DNA of 64,000 bases, taken from assembly GCF_005405885.1 (NCBI RefSeq), contig NZ_BJFL01000013.1:1-64000 (forward strand). Direction: 5' to 3'. The translations under genes and the position numbers were made by a program. Positions 1-64,000 of this stretch are shown here, one piece after another. The stretch is from Gandjariella thermophila (GTDB taxonomy: Bacteria > Actinomycetota > Actinomycetes > Mycobacteriales > Pseudonocardiaceae). Under the pieces are notes generated by a model. The model did not search any database. It was not told the origin of the DNA and saw nothing but the letters and a program-made list of their open reading frames with translations. The first letter of the stretch is position 1, and each line of letters begins with the position of its first letter.

Positions 1-1368
1 GTCCTCCGCGGCCGTCCAGGTATTGCATTGGGCGGTGCGGTTGTACTGGGCGCCCTGGACCGTCCAACCCTGCACGTGGGCGCCGTTGCCGTGGTCGCGA
101 CGGGTCTGCACGCCGTTGTCGTCGCCCCGGCCACGCTGATCCTGGATGGCCTCGTCGTACATCGTGCGGTTGACCGCGCCCCGGCCGGTCGCGGCGGCCC
201 AGAACATCCCGTCGAAGCAGTCGGCCTGCAACTCGATCCGCCGGGATATCTGCAGCCCCGCGGGGCTGTCCGCGTCGACGTCGTACATCTGCTCGTGTGC
301 CGCGTCGAGCACCCCGCTGGTGCCCTGGATGAAATGGCCGTACTCGTGCGCGAACACCGCGAGGTACACGCCGGGATGGGCGCCGATCTGGTCCGTCTGC
401 AGGCCGTCGAACGGCATGTAGATGGTGTTGTCCGCGGAGCAGTAGAACGCCGCGGCCTGGTCCGAGGTGGTCGTTCCGCACGCGCTGTGCCAGTTCCGGC
501 CCGCGGGGAAGGACAGCGCCGGCTGCTCGAACGGCAGGTTGGCCGCCCGCAGGACCGGCTGCCACGCCTGGTTCAGACAGGTGAGCGCGGCCTCGAAGAA
601 CGCCTGCGCGCTGGCCGGGTCGCTCCGCCACCGCGGCAGGTCGCAGGTGACCGCCGGCAACCCGAGTTGCCCCGCGAACAGGGGGTTGTCGCCGGTGGCG
701 AGCACCTTTCTCGGCCCGGCCGGGGCCGTGGCGGTCGGTGGTGCGGCGGTGGCCGGCGCGGACCGCCGCGGCCCGGCGGTGCCGGTCGCGGTCGGGGCGT
801 CCGTCGTGGTGTCGGCCGTTGTCGTGGTGGCGGTCGGGGTCGCGGTACCGGTATCAGGGACGTATTCCGTGGTGTCCGGCGCCGCGGTCGGCTGGGTGTA
901 GCCGACTTCGGCCGTGCGGTGGGATGCCGTGGCGACGCCGACGACGCCGGCCAGCATGGCGCCGACCAGGACGACCGCGCACAGCACCACGGCGAGCACC
1001 GGGCCGGCGCTGGACCCGCGGCGCGGGGTGATCAGCGGACCGGAGGGTCCCGGCCGCCAGGGACCCGGCCAGGGCGGGCCACCGGTCGCCGGGTACCCGA
1101 CCTGGCCGGGCGCTCCGGGCGCCGGCCGACCGGCGGTGAATAACGGCGTCCACGGCGGCGCGGGCGGGTTGGCCGCCGGTCCCGGGGCCAGCACCCCAGG
1201 CGGAGCCGCCGGCAGCGGAGCGGGTACCGGAGGCGGGGCCACCGGCCGCGGCGGCGGAACAGCGGGCACTCCGCCCGGCGGGCGGTACCCCGGGACCGGG
1301 TGCCCGAACGGTGGTGGTCCCTGGTGCGGTTGCTGGTTCGGCCAGCCCGGTGGTGGCGCCTGGTTCAC
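1..1368 (-). CDS. Membrane-anchored neutral zinc metallopeptidase (C-terminus beyond window)
   Basis: The gene reads leftward and runs off the window edge; 456 codons are visible. The chosen GTG (1366-1368) has a GGGGGAG-type ribosome site just upstream. The N-terminal ~115 residues are Pro/Gly-rich and probably cytosolic. One hydrophobic segment follows (about residues 121-146), then a Thr/Pro-rich spacer to about residue 215, then the catalytic domain. The zinc motif HEYGH (residues 341-345), within HEYGHFIQ, and a downstream ELQADCF with the third ligand are those of the YpfJ-type neutral zinc metallopeptidase family. The layout suggests a protease held outside the cell by a single membrane anchor and flexible linker. 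The substrate is unknown. It is divergent from the DUF2207 gene, with only ~117 bases between the starts. Confidence 0.85.
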   Translation of the reverse strand, partial: MNQAPPPGWPNQQPHQGPPPFGHPVPGYRPPGGVPAVPPPRPVAPPPVPAPLPAAPPGVLAPGPAANPPAPPWTPLFTAGRPAPGAPGQVGYPATGGPPWPGPWRPGPSGPLITPRRGSSAGPVLAVVLCAVVLVGAMLAGVVGVATASHRTAEVGYTQPTAAPDTTEYVPDTGTATPTATTTTADTTTDAPTATGTAGPRRSAPATAAPPTATAPAGPRKVLATGDNPLFAGQLGLPAVTCDLPRWRSDPASAQAFFEAALTCLNQAWQPVLRAANLPFEQPALSFPAGRNWHSACGTTTSDQAAAFYCSADNTIYMPFDGLQTDQIGAHPGVYLAVFAHEYGHFIQGTSGVLDAAHEQMYDVDADSPAGLQISRRIELQADCFDGMFWAAATGRGAVNRTMYDEAIQDQRGRGDDNGVQTRRDHGNGAHVQGWTVQGAQYNRTAQCNTWTAAED

Positions 1369-55106: not shown

Positions 55107-56204
55107 GTGAGCGTCGGGGATGTCAAGGGCTCAGAAGGGTGCCAGGTGACCGGTGACCCCGTTCGGGCGGAACGGCCCGCGGTACTGACGCAGGCGGCCG
55201 GCGAGGACCCGATCGGGGGAGACGGCCGGGACCTGCCCGCCGAGCTGGACGAGGCGCTGCGGGAGGGACCGTTCCACCGCGCCCTGCGGGCGGCCATCGC
55301 ACACCGGGGGCTGCCGCTGGCCCGGCTGCGGGCCCGGCTGGACGAGCTGGGCGCGCACGTCGGCCAGTCCACGCTGAGCTACTGGCAGCGCGGCACCCGG
55401 CATCCGGAGCTGCCCAAGGCCGTCGGCGCCATCCGAGCCCTGGAGTCGGTGCTGCGGCTGCCGCGCGAGTCACTGGTCACCCTGGCGCGGCTAGCCGGCC
55501 GCCCGGCCGGGCCCGCACCGCTGCTGCCCGCCACGCCGGCCGACCCGGCCGACGCCTGGGCGCGGACGGTCGCGTTGCTCGCTGAGTTCGACAGCCTGCC
55601 GGACGCCAAGCGATGCAACGCCGAGCTTGAGGTGCTCGCGGTGCACGACACCGTGCTGGTCGGGGCGAACCGCCAGCGGCTGGCGGTGACCACCCGGATG
55701 GTGGTGCGCGCGCTGGTCGACGGCCCGGACCGGTACCTCGTCGTGCACCACGCCGACGAGGTACCGGCGGGCGAGGACATCGAGGCGGTGGCGGCGGAGG
55801 GGTGCCGGCCCGGCTGGCTCCGGCGCGCCGCCGCGGTCCCCGGCCTGGTCGCCGAGCTGCTGTTCGACCGGCGGCTCGCGGAGGGCGAGACGCACGTGTT
55901 CTGCTTCACCGTCCGGGACGGCACCGGCGGGCCCACCCCCGGGCAGTACCGGATGTTCCGCGGCTCGTGCGCCAGCTACCTGGTGCAGATGTCGTTCCGG
56001 CCGGAGATGCCGCCGGCCCGCTGCGTCCGCCGGTTCCGCGCCGCGGACGGCACGGAGCCGGCGAGCGCCGACGACCTGGTGTGCGGGCTCGGCGGGGTGG
56101 TCAGCGCGTACTTCCCCGATGTCGGCCCCGGCCTGGCCGGCATCGACATCACCTGGTCCCGGGAACACAGCGCGGCTGCGCATGTCAGCGGGCAATCCGG
56201 CTAG
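55107..56204 (+). CDS. XRE-family DNA-binding protein with large C-terminal effector-like domain
   Basis: 365 residues from GTG 55107 (GTG 55146 is an alternative). The XRE-type helix-turn-helix lies around residues 55-115 (FHRALRAAIAHRGLPLARLRARLD ... STLSYWQRGTRHPELPKAV). A ~200-residue C-terminal domain follows (VLAVHDTVLVGANRQRLAVTTRMVVRAL; HVFCFTVRDGTGGPTPGQYRMFRGSCASYLVQM), of no recognised fold; it may bind a ligand. It ends nine bases before the STAND regulator gene, so they are very likely one operon. Function unknown. Confidence 0.8.
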   Translation: MSVGDVKGSEGCQVTGDPVRAERPAVLTQAAGEDPIGGDGRDLPAELDEALREGPFHRALRAAIAHRGLPLARLRARLDELGAHVGQSTLSYWQRGTRHPELPKAVGAIRALESVLRLPRESLVTLARLAGRPAGPAPLLPATPADPADAWARTVALLAEFDSLPDAKRCNAELEVLAVHDTVLVGANRQRLAVTTRMVVRALVDGPDRYLVVHHADEVPAGEDIEAVAAEGCRPGWLRRAAAVPGLVAELLFDRRLAEGETHVFCFTVRDGTGGPTPGQYRMFRGSCASYLVQMSFRPEMPPARCVRRFRAADGTEPASADDLVCGLGGVVSAYFPDVGPGLAGIDITWSREHSAAAHVSGQSG

Positions 56205-56213
56205 CCTGGCGCC

Positions 56214-58559
56214 ATGACGGCGGCCCTCCGCACCGGTACCCCACGTCGGGTCGGCAACCTGCCGTTCGACACGACGAGCTTCTTCGGCCGCCGACGTGAG
56301 ATCGGCCAGATCAGGCGGCTGCTGTCCAACTACCGCGTGGTCACCATCACCGGTCCCGGCGGGGTGGGCAAGACCCGGCTGGCCGTGCGCACGGCCGGCG
56401 ACACGGGGCGGGCGTTCCGGAACAACGTGTGGTTCGTCGAGCTCGGCGAGCTTCGCGACCCCAGCCTGCTGGGCACCACCGTCGCGGAGACCCTGGGCCT
56501 GTACGACCACACCAAGCGGTCCCCGATCGACACGGTCATCGACCACGTCGCCGACAGCCCGACGCTGCTCCTGCTGGACAACTGCGAGCACCTGGTCGAC
56601 GAGGTGGCGGCGTTCGTGGACCGGCTCATCCGCAACTGCCCCGGGCTGACGGTCATGGCCACCAGCCGCCAGTCGCTCGGCCTGGTCGGGGAGAGCACGT
56701 TCGCGGTCGCGCCGCTCCAGGTTCCCGATCCGGACCACGTCCGGTCGCCGGACGCGGTCATGCAGTACGACTCGGTGCTGCTGTTCGCCGAACGTGCCGC
56801 CGCGGTGTGGCCGCACTTCAGCGTGACCGAACAGAACTACCGGGCCGTCGCCCGGCTGTGCCACGACCTGGACGGGATGCCGCTGGCCATCGAGTTGGCC
56901 GCGGCCCGCCTGCGGGCACTGTCCCTGGACCAGATCGTCGAGCGGCTCCGCGAGCGCTTCCGGCTGCTCTCCGGCGGCGCGCGCGGCGCGCCCACCCGGC
57001 AGCGCACGCTACGGGCGCTCATCGACTGGAGCTACGAGCTGTGCTCCGAGCGGGAACGGCACGTTTGGGCGCGCGCGGCGGTGTTCTCCGGCAGCTTCGA
57101 CCTGGCCGCCGCCGAATACGTGGCCGGCGGCGGCCTGGACCCCGCGGACGTGTACAGCACCGTGGATTCCCTGTTGGACAAGTCGATCCTGATGCGCGAG
57201 GAGCACGGCGCCACCGTGCGGTACCGGATGCTCGAGACGATCCGGGAGTACGGCGAGGACATGCTCGCCGAGGCCGGCGAACTCACCGCCGTCCGGCGCC
57301 GCCACCGCGACTGGTACGGGCGGCTCGCCGCGCGGTTCGAGGCCGAGTGGATCGGTCCGCACCAGGTCGACTGGGTTCGCCGGTTGCAGCGGGAACACCC
57401 CAACCTGCGGGTGGCGCTGGAGTTCTGCGCCCAGGAGCCCGGTGAGGCGGTCGCCGGGTTGCGCCTTGCCGCGCGGCTCGACGACTACTGGGCGGTGCGC
57501 GGCCTCTACACCGAGCTGCGGCACTGGCTGGACCGGACCCTGCGGGTGGCGACCGAGCCCACCCCGGAACGGGTGGCCGGGCTGCGGATGAACGCCTGGT
57601 ACGCGACGCTCCAGGGCGACATCCCCGCGGCACGACGGCTGCTCGCCGATGCCGTGATGCTCAACGGCGCGCTCGGGGTCGAGGCCGAGCGCGCCTACCT
57701 GATCCAGGCAACGGCTCTCGGTGCCCTCTTCAGCGGCGACCGGGACACGGCGGTCACGCTGTTCGGGGAGGCGCTCGCGGCGTTCCGGGCGGCCCGGGAC
57801 ATGCGCGGGGAACTGATCAGCCTGATGCTGCTCGGCGCGACCGTGGGCCTGCACGGAGATCCCGAGAAGGGGCTGGCCCTGCTGCACGAGTGCATCGGGA
57901 AGGCGACGGCGCTCGGCGAGGTGGGCTGGCGGTCGTGGGCGCTGTGGGAGGTGACCCAGATCGAAGTGCCCTACGGCTCGCTGGACGACGCCGACTCCGC
58001 CGCCCGCGAGGCACTCGAGCTGCACCAACGGCTCGGCATGAAGCTCGCCATGGCCTTCGCCCTCGACACCCTGGCGTGGATCGCCGAGCGTCGTGACCAG
58101 CACACCCGGGCAGCCGAGCTGTTCGGCGCCGCCAGCACCCTGTGGGACGCGGTCGGAGCCTCGCCGGAGAACTACATGGGCTTCGAGACCCAGCACCGCC
58201 GGCAGTGGGACCGTGCCCGCAAGGCGCTCGGCGACGCCGCGTTCGACGCGGCGTTCCAGCACGGCAGGCAACTGCCCACCGACGCGGCCGTGAACCTCGC
58301 GCTGGGGCGACGCCCGGTCGAAGCCGCCGCGCCACCGCCGAGCCCGAGGAAGGCACCGCTGACGCGGCGCGAGGGGGAGATCGCCGAACTGGTCGCCGAG
58401 GGCATGACCAACAGGGACATCGCCGAGCGGCTGGTGATCTCGCCGCGCACCGCGGACACGCACGTCGAGCACATCCTGACCAAGCTCGGCTTCACCTCCC
58501 GCGCCCAGATCGCGTCGTGGGTGGCCGCCCAGAAGGGGCGGCCACCCGGCACGACGTAA
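56214..58559 (+). CDS. STAND-ATPase regulator with C-terminal LuxR HTH
   Basis: 781 residues. The NTPase core has SFFGRRREIGQIRRLL, VTITGPGGVGKTRLAVR (P-loop, ~47-54), LLLLDNCEHLVDEVAAFVD (Walker B), GLTVMATSRQSLGLVGES and GMPLAIELAAARL. A winged-helix and TPR-like helical repeats follow (residues ~300-680), then a LuxR-type helix-turn-helix (LTRREGEIAELVAEGMTNRDIAERLVISPRTADTHVEHILTKLGF). Such LAL/STAND regulators switch on oligomerisation after ligand or partner binding and often control secondary metabolism. The likely partner is the co-transcribed XRE protein. Targets unknown. Confidence 0.9.
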   Translation: MTAALRTGTPRRVGNLPFDTTSFFGRRREIGQIRRLLSNYRVVTITGPGGVGKTRLAVRTAGDTGRAFRNNVWFVELGELRDPSLLGTTVAETLGLYDHTKRSPIDTVIDHVADSPTLLLLDNCEHLVDEVAAFVDRLIRNCPGLTVMATSRQSLGLVGESTFAVAPLQVPDPDHVRSPDAVMQYDSVLLFAERAAAVWPHFSVTEQNYRAVARLCHDLDGMPLAIELAAARLRALSLDQIVERLRERFRLLSGGARGAPTRQRTLRALIDWSYELCSERERHVWARAAVFSGSFDLAAAEYVAGGGLDPADVYSTVDSLLDKSILMREEHGATVRYRMLETIREYGEDMLAEAGELTAVRRRHRDWYGRLAARFEAEWIGPHQVDWVRRLQREHPNLRVALEFCAQEPGEAVAGLRLAARLDDYWAVRGLYTELRHWLDRTLRVATEPTPERVAGLRMNAWYATLQGDIPAARRLLADAVMLNGALGVEAERAYLIQATALGALFSGDRDTAVTLFGEALAAFRAARDMRGELISLMLLGATVGLHGDPEKGLALLHECIGKATALGEVGWRSWALWEVTQIEVPYGSLDDADSAAREALELHQRLGMKLAMAFALDTLAWIAERRDQHTRAAELFGAASTLWDAVGASPENYMGFETQHRRQWDRARKALGDAAFDAAFQHGRQLPTDAAVNLALGRRPVEAAAPPPSPRKAPLTRREGEIAELVAEGMTNRDIAERLVISPRTADTHVEHILTKLGFTSRAQIASWVAAQKGRPPGTT

Positions 58560-58724: not shown

Positions 58725-60188
58725 TCAGTACCGGTAGTGCTCCGACTTGAACGGGCCCTCCGGGTCCACGCCGATGTACTCGGCCTGGTCCTTGGTGAGC
58801 TTGGTGATCTCACCGCCGAGCGCCTCGACGTGGATCCTGGCCACCTTCTCGTCGAGGATCTTGGGCAGCCGGTACACCTCGCGGTCGTACCCCTGGTACT
58901 TGGTGAACAGCTCGACCTGCGCGATGACCTGGTTGGAGAACGAGTTCGACATCACGAACGACGGGTGACCGGTGGCGTTGCCCAGGTTCAGCAGCCGCCC
59001 CTCGGACAGCACGATGATCGAGTGCCCGTCCGGGAACACCCACTCGTCCACCTGCGGCTTGATGTTGATCCGGTGAATCCCGGGGTAGCGGGCCAGGCCG
59101 GCCATGTCCAGCTCATTGTCGAAGTGACCGATGTTGCCCAGGATCGCCTGGTGCTTCATCCGGGCCATGTGGTCGACCGTGACCACGTCCTTGTTACCGG
59201 TCGTGGTGATCACGATGTCGGCGGTGTCGAGCACGCTCTCCAACTTGGCCACCTGGTAGCCGTCCATCATGGCCTGCAGCGCGCAGATCGGGTCGATCTC
59301 GGTGACGATCACCCGGGCGCCCTGGCCGCGTAGCGACTCGGCGGCGCCCTTGCCCACGTCGCCGTAGCCGCAGACCACCGCCACCTTGCCGCCGATGAGC
59401 ACGTCGGTGCCCCGGTTGATGCCGTCGATCAGTGAGTGCCGGATGCCGTAGCGGTTGTCGAACTTCGACTTGGTGACCGAGTCGTTGACGTTGATCGCCG
59501 GGAACAGCAGCTCACCCGCGGCGGCGAGCTGGTACAGCCGCAGCACGCCGGTGGTGGTCTCCTCGGTGACGCCCCGGATGCCCTCGCCGATCTTGGTCCA
59601 CTTGCCCGGGTCGGCCGCGAGGGACGCCCGCAGCAGCTCCAGGATGACCTTCCACTCCTCCGGGTCGTCCTCCTCGGGTGAGGGCACCACGCCGGCCTTC
59701 TCGTACTGGGTGCCCTTGTGCACCAGCAGCGTCGCGTCCCCGCCGTCGTCCAGGATCATGTTCGGGCCGGCGCCGTCCGGCCAGGTCAGCGCGCGTTCGG
59801 TGCACCACCAGTACTCGGTCAGCGACTCACCCTTCCAGGCGAACACCGGCACGCCCTTCGGCTCCTCGGGGCTGCCGTGCGGGCCGACCACCACGGCGGC
59901 CGCGGCGTGGTCCTGGGTGGAGAAGATGTTGCAGGACGCCCACCGCACCTCGGCACCCAGCGCGACCAGCGTCTCGATCAGCACGGCGGTCTGCACCGTC
60001 ATGTGCAGCGATCCGGAGATCCGGGCGCCCCGCAGGGGGTAGACCTCGGCGTACTCCCGGCGCAGCGCCATCAACCCCGGCATCTCGTGCTCGGCCAGCC
60101 GGATCTCCTTGCGGCCGAACTCGGCCTGCGCGAGATCGGCAACGGCGAAGTCGACGCCGTTGCGGGTCTGCAGCCGTTCTGCGGTCAT
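58725..60188 (-). CDS. ahcY: Adenosylhomocysteinase (S-adenosylhomocysteine hydrolase)
   Basis: 487 residues from ATG 60188 with GGGAGG upstream. It splits S-adenosylhomocysteine, the product inhibitor of methylation reactions, into adenosine and homocysteine. Motifs: [53 protein letters not shown], the NAD-binding [39 protein letters not shown] and [13 protein letters not shown]. It has the ~40-residue insertion of the mycobacterial/eukaryote-like long form. No SAH riboswitch was recognised upstream. Confidence 0.97.
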
Positions 60189-60485
60189 GGGCGCGCCCCT
60201 CCCTGGATCCGGTTTTCGCGCCTCGACCCTACCGCCCACCACCTGCGGCTCCCGTCCGATCGACGGAAATCGCGCCGTTCCGCAGCGGCGCGCCGCGTCA
60301 TCTCGAAGAATGATCGCGAGCCTGACGGTTCGCGGAGCCGCAGAGGTTACCTGGCCGACGTGAGTCGCGGCACGTGGGGCGACCCGCGCGCGCCGGGCCG
60401 CCGGGCCCGCGATCGGGGTGGCCAGAGGCGCCCTGCCGACACGATCGCGGCGGCGCGCGAAGTCGCGAAGGGAGGAGCCGTGCTG
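60189..60485. other. ~297-bp divergent region between ahcY and the membrane hydrolase gene
   Basis: It should hold the ahcY promoter and that of the rightward gene. No motif beyond ordinary ribosome sites was recognised. Confidence 0.4.
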
Positions 60486-62897
60486 ATGCCGGGGCCCGAC
60501 ACGCGGGTGGTCGAGCTGAGGGTGCATGGCGTGCACGGGACCGCGCCCGAGGACCTGGTCGACGCGGTGGCCGCGGTGGACGTGGCCGGCGACGGGGTGG
60601 GCCGGATCGTGCGCCCGGCGGACCGGCTGCGCAGACCGGCGCCCGGGCCGGTGCTGCACGCCGCGGTGCAGCCGGTCACCCGCACCGTGGAGGGCTACCA
60701 CTGGGGCGCGATGACCTCCGGCGGGCTGGCCAAGTCGACCTGGGCGCTGCTGTTCCCGTTCGCGCTGGCCAACGTCGCGCACTGGATGCTGCCGCCGGTG
60801 CCCGAGGGCGATCGCCCGGCCCGGGTGCTCGGCTACCTGCTGCGCGCGCTCCTGCGGCTGGCCGCGTTACTGCTGACGATGCTGCTCACCGCCCAGTTGA
60901 CAGTGGTCAGCTTCGACCTGCTGGCCGCCCAGTGCCTCGCGCCCGGCTCATCCTGCCTGGCCGGCACGGTCGGAGAGTGGCTGCGCGAGCTACCCGGCGT
61001 GCGCCCGGCGGCCGGCCTGCTCCCGGTGGCACTGGCCGCGTACGTGCTGCACCGGGTGTCCACGGTGAACTGGAAGGTGTCCGAGGACGCGACCGCGACG
61101 ACGGCGCCGCGCGAGGGCGTCGACCCGAAGCTGCCCGGGGCCACGGTGGACGCCGACCCGGACACCGCGGCGCTGCGCACGTTGCACCTCACCGCGGCCC
61201 TGGCGGTGACCGCGCTGCTGGTGCTCGGCGGCCCGCTGCGGCCGACCGGCTCGGACACGGCCACGGTGACCTGGCTTGCCTCGCTGGTGCTGCTCGCGGT
61301 GTGCGGGGTGGGGGTACTGCTGCTGGACGACCCCACCTCGGCCACCCCGAGCCGCACGCCCGGCTGGGTGCATGCCCGGCTCGGCCCGGTGCCCCGGCGG
61401 GTGCTCGGCGGCCTGGGCGCGGTCGTCTTCGCCGTCTCCGGAGTACTGGCCACCCCGCTGCCGGAGCGGCTCGCCGGGCCGGACGCCACCGTGGAGACCA
61501 TCGCCGGGCTGCTCGTGGTGGTGTGCGTGGCATTCGCCGTGCTGCTGGCGCCGGCCGCGCTGCTGGCCCGCCGCGGGTGCCACTGGTCGGCGCTGCCGCG
61601 CCGGCTACGCCCGTGGGCCGGGGGCTGGATGGCCGCGCCGGTGCTGGTGCTCGGCGCGCTGCTCGGCGGCGGGTTCGGCGCCGGCCTGGCGATCACGGTC
61701 CGCGAGGCCATCCACAGCGTCCGCCTGGACCTGCCCGCGGGCTACCGGCTGATCACCCTGCTGTGGGGCGCCGGCGCGGTGCTCGGGCTGGCGGCCGCGC
61801 TCACCGGGGTCGGCGTCGCCGCGATGCTGCGCTGGCTGTCCGCGCGCCGGGGCCGGGACACCGCACCCGAGGTCGGGCTGCTGCACGAGGGCCGGCCGGA
61901 GGATGCCCGGCGCGCGGCCCGGGCCTGGGCGCGGGCCAGCCTGGAACGCGGCCACGGGCAGCACGTGCTGCTCGCCGTGGCCGGCGCACTGGCCACCGGC
62001 GCGGCGCTCGCCATCCTGGTCCGCCTCGGCCTGCTGCCGCTGCCGGACTGGCTGCAGCCGCTGTCCACGGTCGGGGTGGCGGTGCTGTGGCTGCTGGTCG
62101 GCGGGCTGCTGCGGCTGGTGTATCTCGCCGCTGCGCGCCCGGGCGCGGCACGCGGCCTCGGCATCCTGTACGACCTGGCGTCGTTCTGGCCGAGGGAGGC
62201 GCATCCCGTGGTGCCGCCCTGCTACGCACTCAAGGCGGTGCCCGAGGTGGCCGCCCGGGCGGCGGAGCACCTCAAAGACCCGAACACCCGCGTCGTGCTC
62301 ACCGGGCACAGCCAGGGCAGCCTGCTGGTCGCGGTGGCCGCGTCCCGGCTGCTCGCCGCGCTGCCGGACGCGGACCACGAGCGGGTCGGCCTGGTCACAG
62401 CGGGGTCGCAGCTGCAGTGGGCCTACCCGAGAGCGTTCCCGGCCGTGGTGCCGCACGCGTCGCTGACCGCGCTGTTCGGCGAGTTGGGCGGCCGCTGGCG
62501 GGCGCTGTGCCGGGGCACCGACCCGCTTGGCGGCGCGGTGTCCAGTTGGGGTCGCCAGGTCTACGGCGGGATGCTGCTCGGCGTCGGGTTCCGCGCGGAC
62601 GGCACGGACGGCGCGCTGCCCGCCGCGACCCGCGGGCCGACCGGGGTGCTGGTGCTCGGCGGTGACCACTGGCTGCCCGACCCGCAGCGCGGCCCGTTCC
62701 CGGGCCGCCGCTGGCGCGCCGGGGTGCTCGGCCACGCCGACTACTACTCCGACCCGGAATGGGACCGCGCGGTGGCCATGGCCGCAGGCCTCGAACCCAC
62801 GGTGACCGAGGAGCCGGCCGAGGAGCCGCCCAATCTGCTCGCCGCCGTCAACGGCAGCCGGGAGCCGAGCGGGCTGGCACCGCAGGACGGGCCGTGA
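60486..62897 (+). CDS. Multi-pass membrane protein with split alpha/beta-hydrolase motifs
   Basis: 803 residues from ATG 60486; GTG 60480 is two codons earlier and both share the GGGAGGAGCC site. It opens with a typical hydrolase strand and oxyanion loop ([21 protein letters not shown]). About eight hydrophobic helices follow over residues ~90-545 ([78 protein letters not shown]). After ~580 the hydrolase resumes with [20 protein letters not shown] (nucleophile Ser in GHSQG) and a His-containing [11 protein letters not shown]. This looks like a serine lipase or esterase fold with a membrane domain inserted. Function unknown. Confidence 0.85.
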
Positions 62898-63051: not shown

Positions 63052-64000
63052 TCAACCGCTGGCGACCGCCGATTCGGCCGCCAGACGGCCGGTGAGCAGG
63101 GCGTCGGCGGTGGCCTGCCGGCCGGCGCCCGCCAGCAACCCGGCCGGCGCGAGCACGTAGTCGGCGTCCACCGTGACCGCCGCGCCGCGCAGCACCGGCC
63201 GGAGCACCGGGTCCGCGCGCAGGTCGTGTTCCAGGCCGGCGAGGGCGTCGCGGTCGGCGTGCCGGAACACACCGCCGGAGAGGACCAGCAGCCCGGCGCC
63301 GCGCGGCCCGAGCCGCCCGTCGACCAGCCGCAGATGCCGGCGGACGGCGAGCACCACGGCCAGGCGGGCGAGCGTCAGGTCGACGGTTCTCTCCCGCGCG
63401 TCGTCCGGCACCCAGCCGACGTCGGTGGCTCGCCTCTCCGCCGCCTCCCCGAGTTCCGCCGCCTGACCGGCGTCGACCAGCCGTTCCGCTGCCGCCTCGG
63501 CCACCACCGTCGGCGCCGACCACCGCATGCCGAGGTCCCCCTCGACCGTGCGCCGGTCGGCCGGCAGCCCGACGGCCCGCTCGCCTCCGTCCGGTGTGGA
63601 CACCGCCGAGTACACGTCCGTGGTGGCTCCGCCGACATCGACCACGAGGACCGCGCCGCCGCTGCCGTCCCGCTCGGCGAGCACACCGGCCAGCCGGGAC
63701 ACCCCGGCCAGCACCGCGTCCGGGGTCACCGCGCGCACCATGCGGCGGAACGCCGGACCGCGCGACAGCCCCTTGCCGCCGATCACGTGCCGCAGGAACG
63801 CCTCCCGGATCGCCTTTCGCGCCGGCCCTGGCGCGAGTTCGCCCACGTCGGGGAGCACGTTGTCGGTGGCCGCCACGGTGCGGCCGGTGTCCCGCAGGAT
63901 GGCCAGCGCCTCGTCCCTGGCGTCGGCGTTGCCGGCCAGCACGATCGGGGTGCGCAGTCGGTTGGTGGCCAGCCGGTGCGCGTTGTGCAGCAGCACGCGG
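63052..64000 (-). CDS. GlmL/MutL-family ASKHA ATPase (N-terminus beyond window)
   Basis: The C-terminal ~316 residues of a leftward gene cut by the right edge; the true start lies outside. LVVDVGGATTDVYSAVS is a phosphate-binding loop of actin/Hsp70-type ATPases, LLVLSGGVFRH is a second nucleotide loop, and PIVLAGNADARDEA with NVLPDVGELAPGPARKAI resembles the MutL/GlmL proteins that accompany adenosylcobalamin-dependent glutamate mutases and aminomutases. A reactivating-chaperone role for such a mutase is the likely function; the mutase genes would lie to the right. Confidence 0.8.
   Translation of the reverse strand, partial: RVLLHNAHRLATNRLRTPIVLAGNADARDEALAILRDTGRTVAATDNVLPDVGELAPGPARKAIREAFLRHVIGGKGLSRGPAFRRMVRAVTPDAVLAGVSRLAGVLAERDGSGGAVLVVDVGGATTDVYSAVSTPDGGERAVGLPADRRTVEGDLGMRWSAPTVVAEAAAERLVDAGQAAELGEAAERRATDVGWVPDDARERTVDLTLARLAVVLAVRRHLRLVDGRLGPRGAGLLVLSGGVFRHADRDALAGLEHDLRADPVLRPVLRGAAVTVDADYVLAPAGLLAGAGRQATADALLTGRLAAESAVASG

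Follow-up and report, generated by a model that had tools for sequence, protein, structure and literature searches.

The gene at positions 60486-62897 of the window, the whole 64,000-nucleotide stretch of Gandjariella thermophila DNA analyzed here, appears on balance to encode a polytopic serine hydrolase of the inner membrane whose alpha/beta-hydrolase domain is discontinuous and which probably acts on lipids of the inner leaflet, as judged from sequence conservation and two structure models. In the proposed arrangement, the N-terminal strand (VHG) would supply the oxyanion loop, after which the chain would traverse the membrane ten times and return to the cytosol. The last ~230 residues would then provide the nucleophile elbow, the Asp, the His, and the remaining core, and this C-terminal part would close on the N-terminal strand to form a single active site on the inner side of the membrane. 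Substrate entry may be shaped by the invariant FWPR..HP loop together with the membrane helices. The gene contains the following elements.

60486-62897, plus strand: membrane serine hydrolase gene, an open frame of 803 aa with GTG 60480 as the likelier start.
60504-60542, plus strand: putative oxyanion strand (residues 7-14, strand E7-14 in the model) and VHGVHGT (residues 13-19).
60690-60725, plus strand: conserved EGYxWGxxTSG segment, residues 69-80, ahead of TM1 (Tyr71 in 133/137, Trp73 in 135/137, and Thr77 in 133/137 aligned members).
60813-62135, plus strand: inserted membrane domain with ten predicted helices, residues 110-550, based on hydropathy, the model, and the positive-inside pattern.
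Residues 110-150, 172-193, 227-246, 257-279, and 301-321, plus strand: helices TM1-TM5 as placed by model 1.
Residues 332-364, 383-408, 418-454, 471-514, and 521-550, plus strand: helices TM6-TM10 as placed by model 1.
62184-62225, plus strand: junction loop FWPR..HP..P.CY, residues 567-580, leading from TM10 to the nucleophile half and recognized by its conservation.
62304-62318, plus strand: nucleophile elbow GHSQG with Ser609, preceded by a model strand (601-608) and followed by a helix (610-625).
62520-62522, plus strand: Asp679, the likely triad acid, after strand 671-676.
62667-62669, plus strand: His728.
62733-62735, plus strand: His750, the likely triad base.

The first-pass annotation had placed an oxyanion-strand motif at the N-terminus and the nucleophile far downstream, and both positions hold: VHGVHGT occupies residues 13-19 of 803, GHSQG occupies residues 607-611, and Ser609 is 595 residues away from His14. 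Conservation was scored in a set of 166 proteins including the window protein, from which 29 sharing their last 500 residues with another were removed. The resulting 137 members were taken from the best matches listed, with the weakest relatives under-represented. Among them, Ser609 and Gly611 were each retained in 137/137 and Gly607 in 124/137, and the loss of the serine in orthologues, which had been named beforehand as refuting the split-hydrolase idea, was thus seen in 0/137 of these best-matching members. Asp679 was found in 136/137 members (Glu in L101) and His750 in 135/137 (Gly in L074, missing in L101). At the other end of the chain, Gly15 was present in 133/133 sequences and His14 in 131/133 (Pro in L032 and L048), the remaining four of the 137 being without an N-terminus. 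Chance would not produce conservation on this scale at either end. Each of Pro569, Arg570, His573, Pro574, and Tyr580 in the junction loop was kept in 137/137 members.

The same residues persisted at greater distance. In the diverse set A2, which comprised 28 sequences, 21 of them distant (24-31% identity with the window protein), His14, Gly15, Ser609, Asp679, and His750 were all invariant. The E-x-x-HG strand motif was present in 22/22 distant proteins whose N-terminus lay inside the locus (26 were kept from the phylum sample, of which four were cut by the locus end). If the active site is split, the distant N-terminal VHG and the triad should be conserved jointly, as they are here. Two hallmarks of the alpha/beta-hydrolase superfamily were also found, namely a G-x-S-x-G motif flanked by a strand and a helix, and an acid and a His (Asp679 and His750) following the nucleophile in sequence order. 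Since the triad is conserved, we infer that the window protein is catalytically active.

His728 was considered as the catalytic His and dropped. It does not vary among the 81 close sequences, but occurs in 92/137 members overall, compared with 135/137 for His750, and since distant members without His728 nevertheless keep His750, the latter is the better triad candidate. Some members deviate around the active site. The Actinophytocola copies L069, L070, L075, and L076 have GDSQG, GDSHG, or GESHG instead of GHSQG, with the Ser kept, while L074 (His750 to Gly) and L101 (Asp679 to Glu) are possibly altered members.

Two AlphaFold2 models were compared with known structures. Model 1, of the 803-aa window protein with 81 sequences, had a mean pLDDT of 82.1 and a pTM of 0.87, and model 2, with the 741-aa Kutzneria protein L063 as the query and 62 sequences, had a mean pLDDT of 76.0 and a pTM of 0.83. 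In model 1, the pLDDT fell below 50 in loops 568-578, 680-682, and 740-750, all of them containing or flanking active-site residues, and in model 2 it did so in the equivalent loops and in residues 16-50. For model 1, the alignments in the 50 rows listed by VIA-align started at residues 1-7, ended at 765-775, and covered 153-207 residues, with Z values of 8.1-9.5, and the 50 rows listed for model 2 ran from 1-7 to 723-739 with Z values of 7.5-8.9. VIA-align gives Z values of 7-8 as typical for models without a clear match, and the range of 7.5-9.5 obtained here is at or only modestly above that level. Going by their titles, we take all 50 rows for model 1 to be alpha/beta-hydrolases, and those for model 2 are presumably hydrolases as well, except one, 9c37 (Nir2), which could not be assigned. 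The best Z for model 1 was 9.5 (the thioesterase YbtT, 3.9 Å over 173 residues; LCAT, 4.5 Å over 192 residues), and TesA reached a Z of 9.4.

Across both models, the alignments with Bacillus lipase A began with model residue 7 on chain residue 3, or 6 on 2. Provided that no gap intervenes, V13-H14-G15-V16 would fall on V9-H10-G11-I12 of lipase A, VHGI (9-12), including Ile12, being the oxyanion strand of that enzyme. Run against the PDB and a set of viral models, Foldseek returned nothing at E ≤ 0.001. The best hydrolase for model 1 was LCAT (E 0.75, probability 0.69), and the top 40 rows for this model were mostly transporters with probabilities of ≤0.20.

As read from the aligned ranges, the N- and C-terminal halves most likely assemble as a single hydrolase domain. 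Prediction of the whole chain had been suggested at the outset as the means of seeing whether the two ends pack into one hydrolase, and the outcome was divided: in both models the ranges span both ends, as one sheet including the oxyanion strand would have it, with Z values of up to 9.5, but the Foldseek matches were weak. The proposal of a hydrolase fold assembled across a membrane insertion was supported by the alignments of both models and by the joint conservation of the triad and the oxyanion strand. The other proposal made at that stage, a channel of helices delivering a lipid to the active site, would be compatible with it.

An uninterrupted counterpart was found in the class sample, in which G008 and G934, two genomes from another taxonomic family, gave weak matches confined to the elbow region. 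The G008 protein L188 has LFLHGVG and GHSLGS, with 142 residues from His to Ser and no hydropathy peak between them. It matched Abhydrolase_6 over residues 25-250 with 25.6 bits against a cut-off of 26.3, and hhalign aligned it with A2 at 95% over 76 columns, corresponding to the elbow-to-Asp stretch. The LHGVG strand, the GHSLGS elbow, and the WANFWNVLDP acid stretch are like those of the window family, whereas the lack of an insertion and the extra C-terminal regions are not. Judged by these motifs, L188 shows what is apparently the uninterrupted version of the fold.

The inserted domain was initially thought to have eight helices, but ten were found by hydropathy and in both models. The averaged hydropathy of 81 sequences had ten peaks with cores between residues 125 and 549, and model 1 had ten helices of at least 20 residues between 110 and 550, with model 2 likewise having ten. 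Several polar residues inside the helices are conserved, including His234 in TM3 (137/137), Thr131 (135/137), and the near-invariant Asp144. TM3, which holds the invariant His234, is weakly hydrophobic in distant members, with 40% of 43 above 1.3. In 92 orthologues, the loops on the side of the two chain ends contained 3.2, 3.2, 3.0, and 7.3 K+R per sequence, compared with 1.3, 0.6, 0.7, 0.3, and 0.6 for the loops on the opposite side. The 45 distant members alternated in the same way, with 5.9, 4.0, 2.4, and 7.7 K+R versus 1.7, 1.7, 1.5, 0.6, and 0.2. Since the number of helices is even and alternate loops are rich in K/R, both ends, and hence the active site, are predicted to be cytosolic, and a shared side is a requirement for the two halves to form one domain. 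In L190 (348-3605, plus strand, 1086 aa), VHG and HSLG are separated by 857 residues with about twelve hydropathy peaks between them, and the size of the insert therefore varies and can grow. The VIA-align lists for the full-length models named no membrane fold for the insert, and are silent on whether its fold is new.

A search for the same split in other actinomycetes had also been proposed, and the split was found there. The bacterial genome scan yielded 112 relatives, and the 80 best of these, with 54-65% identity to the window protein, were retained. In evenly drawn samples, matches were obtained in 251/297 genomes of the organism's own taxonomic family (E ≤ 0.001, a few of them weak), in 111/394 genomes of the class (28-row profile A2, E ≤ 1e-6), and in 27/396 genomes of the phylum (single sequence, E ≤ 0.001). 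From these sequences, the split layout is read as old and common to many actinobacteria. Some matches listed in the family and class samples contain an in-frame stop, which may represent gene ends, errors, or broken copies. A tblastn search of plasmid records with a Streptomyces-type member gave two matches, one under "hypothetical protein" and one without annotation. L079, which is 58% identical and has a 'Candidatus Melainabacteria' title, was discarded as a case from outside the phylum; the title is most likely wrong, since contig 670 of its genome, G1046, carries the gene almost where G406 does, and G1046 is apparently identical with G406, which is placed in the family of the window organism.

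The gene neighborhood in the window consists of the following genes.

58725-60188, minus strand: sahH, divergent from the hydrolase gene.
56214-58559, plus strand: gene for a 781-aa protein with the N-terminal nucleotide-binding motif GPGGVGKT.
63052-63999, minus strand: gene cut by the window end, with relatives downstream in 47 clustered loci, window counted.

We take the 58725-60188 gene to encode adenosylhomocysteinase, and the C-terminus of the 781-aa protein is presumably a LuxR-like helix-turn-helix, while the 63052-63999 product resembles, in our estimation, a MutL/GlmL-type protein. A possible helix-turn-helix protein at 55107-56204 adjoins the 56214-58559 gene. Divergent sahH adjoins the hydrolase gene in 60/80 orthologues with a median gap of 142 bases, and the 20/80 without it are Saccharopolyspora, Actinopolyspora, and Halosaccharopolyspora loci. 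The 16 distant loci showed some neighbors common to L111-L113 and L126, which belong to one family, and no neighbors recurring between branches. The gene calls at the neighborhood loci were made by a rough script and are sometimes antisense frames (cluster 1 of the neighbor clustering). Because the neighbors beyond sahH differ between branches, the context names no substrate or pathway.

The first-pass annotation had not recognized the family, and this stands for the window protein, for which Pfam and NCBIfam gave nothing above cut-off and NCBIfam, PHROGs, and PADLOC gave no match. Lipase_3 (PF01764) scored 17.2 bits, below its gathering cut-off of 22, in a match confined to residues 597-641, and Cutinase (PF01083) reached 16.5 bits against a gathering cut-off of 25.9. 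When 28 members were searched at E ≤ 0.1, 15 Pfam families were listed, of which only Lipase_3 (13 members, best E 1e-6), Cutinase (six), and Abhydrolase_1 (two) matched more than one member, while NCBIfam gave five families with one or two members each. Searching the PDB by sequence yielded only weak hits, chiefly to lipases near the elbow; 8boz (Tle3) was rejected as a relative because the elbow region is all that it shares.

Several known systems were compared with this family. Class 3 lipases (Lipase_3) are alike in the elbow region, as seen in 13/28 members, and are not known to have a comparable membrane insertion. In the alignments with the models, Bacillus subtilis lipase A and the cutinases present the VHG strand, the elbow, and the C-terminal part in the same order, but they are small and soluble, without a membrane domain, and are 9-20% identical in the alignments listed. 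A 2011 FEBS Letters paper reportedly deals with transmembrane lipases. According to the consulted extracts of a 2024 superfamily survey, Abhydrolase_9 and Abhydrolase_9_N (PF10081 and PF15420) likewise combine an alpha/beta-hydrolase with a transmembrane domain and are alleged lipases (PMC11878206). Their membrane domain is fused beside the hydrolase, whereas that of the window protein lies inside it, between the oxyanion strand and the nucleophile. Neither PF10081 nor PF15420 was listed for any of the 28 members at E ≤ 0.1, and PF10081 had no match in the genome of the window. The same extracts describe membrane bundles that are C-terminal (DUF687) or form a fused domain (Abhydrolase_9_N), list lid insertion sites, including one after strand 4, and call unique the 229-residue non-membrane helical bundle located right before the catalytic His of DUF6792; they do not mention a multi-helix membrane insertion inside the hydrolase core (PMC11878206). 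A membrane domain inserted in the hydrolase core was not found in the open-licence literature searched. The protein is clearly of the alpha/beta-hydrolase type, its architecture was not found described, and the best reading is a new, nameless family of serine hydrolases that are polytopic in the membrane and have a discontinuous catalytic domain.

The suggested substrate is an inner-leaflet ester or thioester of the lipid type, because the active site is predicted to be cytosolic at the membrane face and the conserved loops 567-580 and 69-80 adjoin helices in the sequence. The same split hydrolase could instead use its membrane domain as a mere anchor or scaffold and act on substrates that are soluble or attached to proteins, for example an acyl-thioester, an acylated protein, or a peptide. 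In the VIA-align list for model 1, thioesterases are placed level with lipases (YbtT 9.5, TesA 9.4), and no lipid-pathway neighbor is evident, with sahH as the common neighbor and differing genes at the distant loci. However, an anchor needs no polar residues in its helices, yet His234 and Thr131 are conserved as described above, and ten helices exceed what an anchor requires; we consider this explanation fairly unlikely.

A further, rather doubtful extension of the inner-leaflet hydrolase is that the insert of ten helices has a function of its own that is linked to catalysis, so that the hydrolase would be built around its own lipid transporter. Helix movement might then open and close the oxyanion hole, the sheet being complete only after the return from the membrane, and a path along His234, Thr131, and Asp144 might bring a lipid, possibly one of the outer leaflet, to the serine on the cytosolic side.

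The protein could also be a transporter, channel, or sensor with a degenerate hydrolase as its regulatory domain. The predominance of transporters among the best Foldseek rows, at probabilities of ≤0.20, fits this idea, and excerpts of the literature on plant AXR4 provide a precedent in that a hydrolase-like fold can be inactive (PMC10756756). The conservation of the triad residues in 135 to 137 of the 137 members is not expected for a degenerate domain and makes this improbable.

Many actinomycete lipases and cutinases are secreted, and by analogy the hydrolase might face outward and act on cell-wall or outer-leaflet lipids. Against this, the end-side loops contain 3.0-7.3 K+R compared with 0.3-1.3 on the opposite side in the 92 orthologues, and the model strand starting at residue 7 leaves no space for a signal peptide, so an outward orientation seems very improbable.

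The cytosolic-facing hydrolase is read from a single frame, 60486-62897, which has no interruption and ends with a TGA stop codon. The position of GTG 60480 is a start codon in 79/80 orthologues and that of ATG 60486 in 5/80, and GTG 60480 is therefore probably the true start. The sequence GGGAGGAG at 60470-60477, upstream of both candidates, could be used for a start at 60480 or 60486. Gly15 and Ser609 lie within one open frame in 80/80 extracted orthologues (the best 80 of 112 relatives) and in 22/22 distant proteins having the N-terminus, which refutes an artefact in which two unrelated genes or a frame error were misread as a single gene, a possibility for which no support was found and which we regard as negligible.

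In other hydrolases, as covered by the extracts of the superfamily survey, membrane domains adjoin the catalytic domain, and inserted segments take the form of lids, caps, or soluble domains (PMC11878206). With a ten-helix membrane domain within the catalytic core, insertion into the membrane should be a condition for forming the active site. A widespread, nameless actinobacterial family that keeps an intact triad and probably acts on a lipid bears on the remodeling of inner-leaflet lipids in bacteria.
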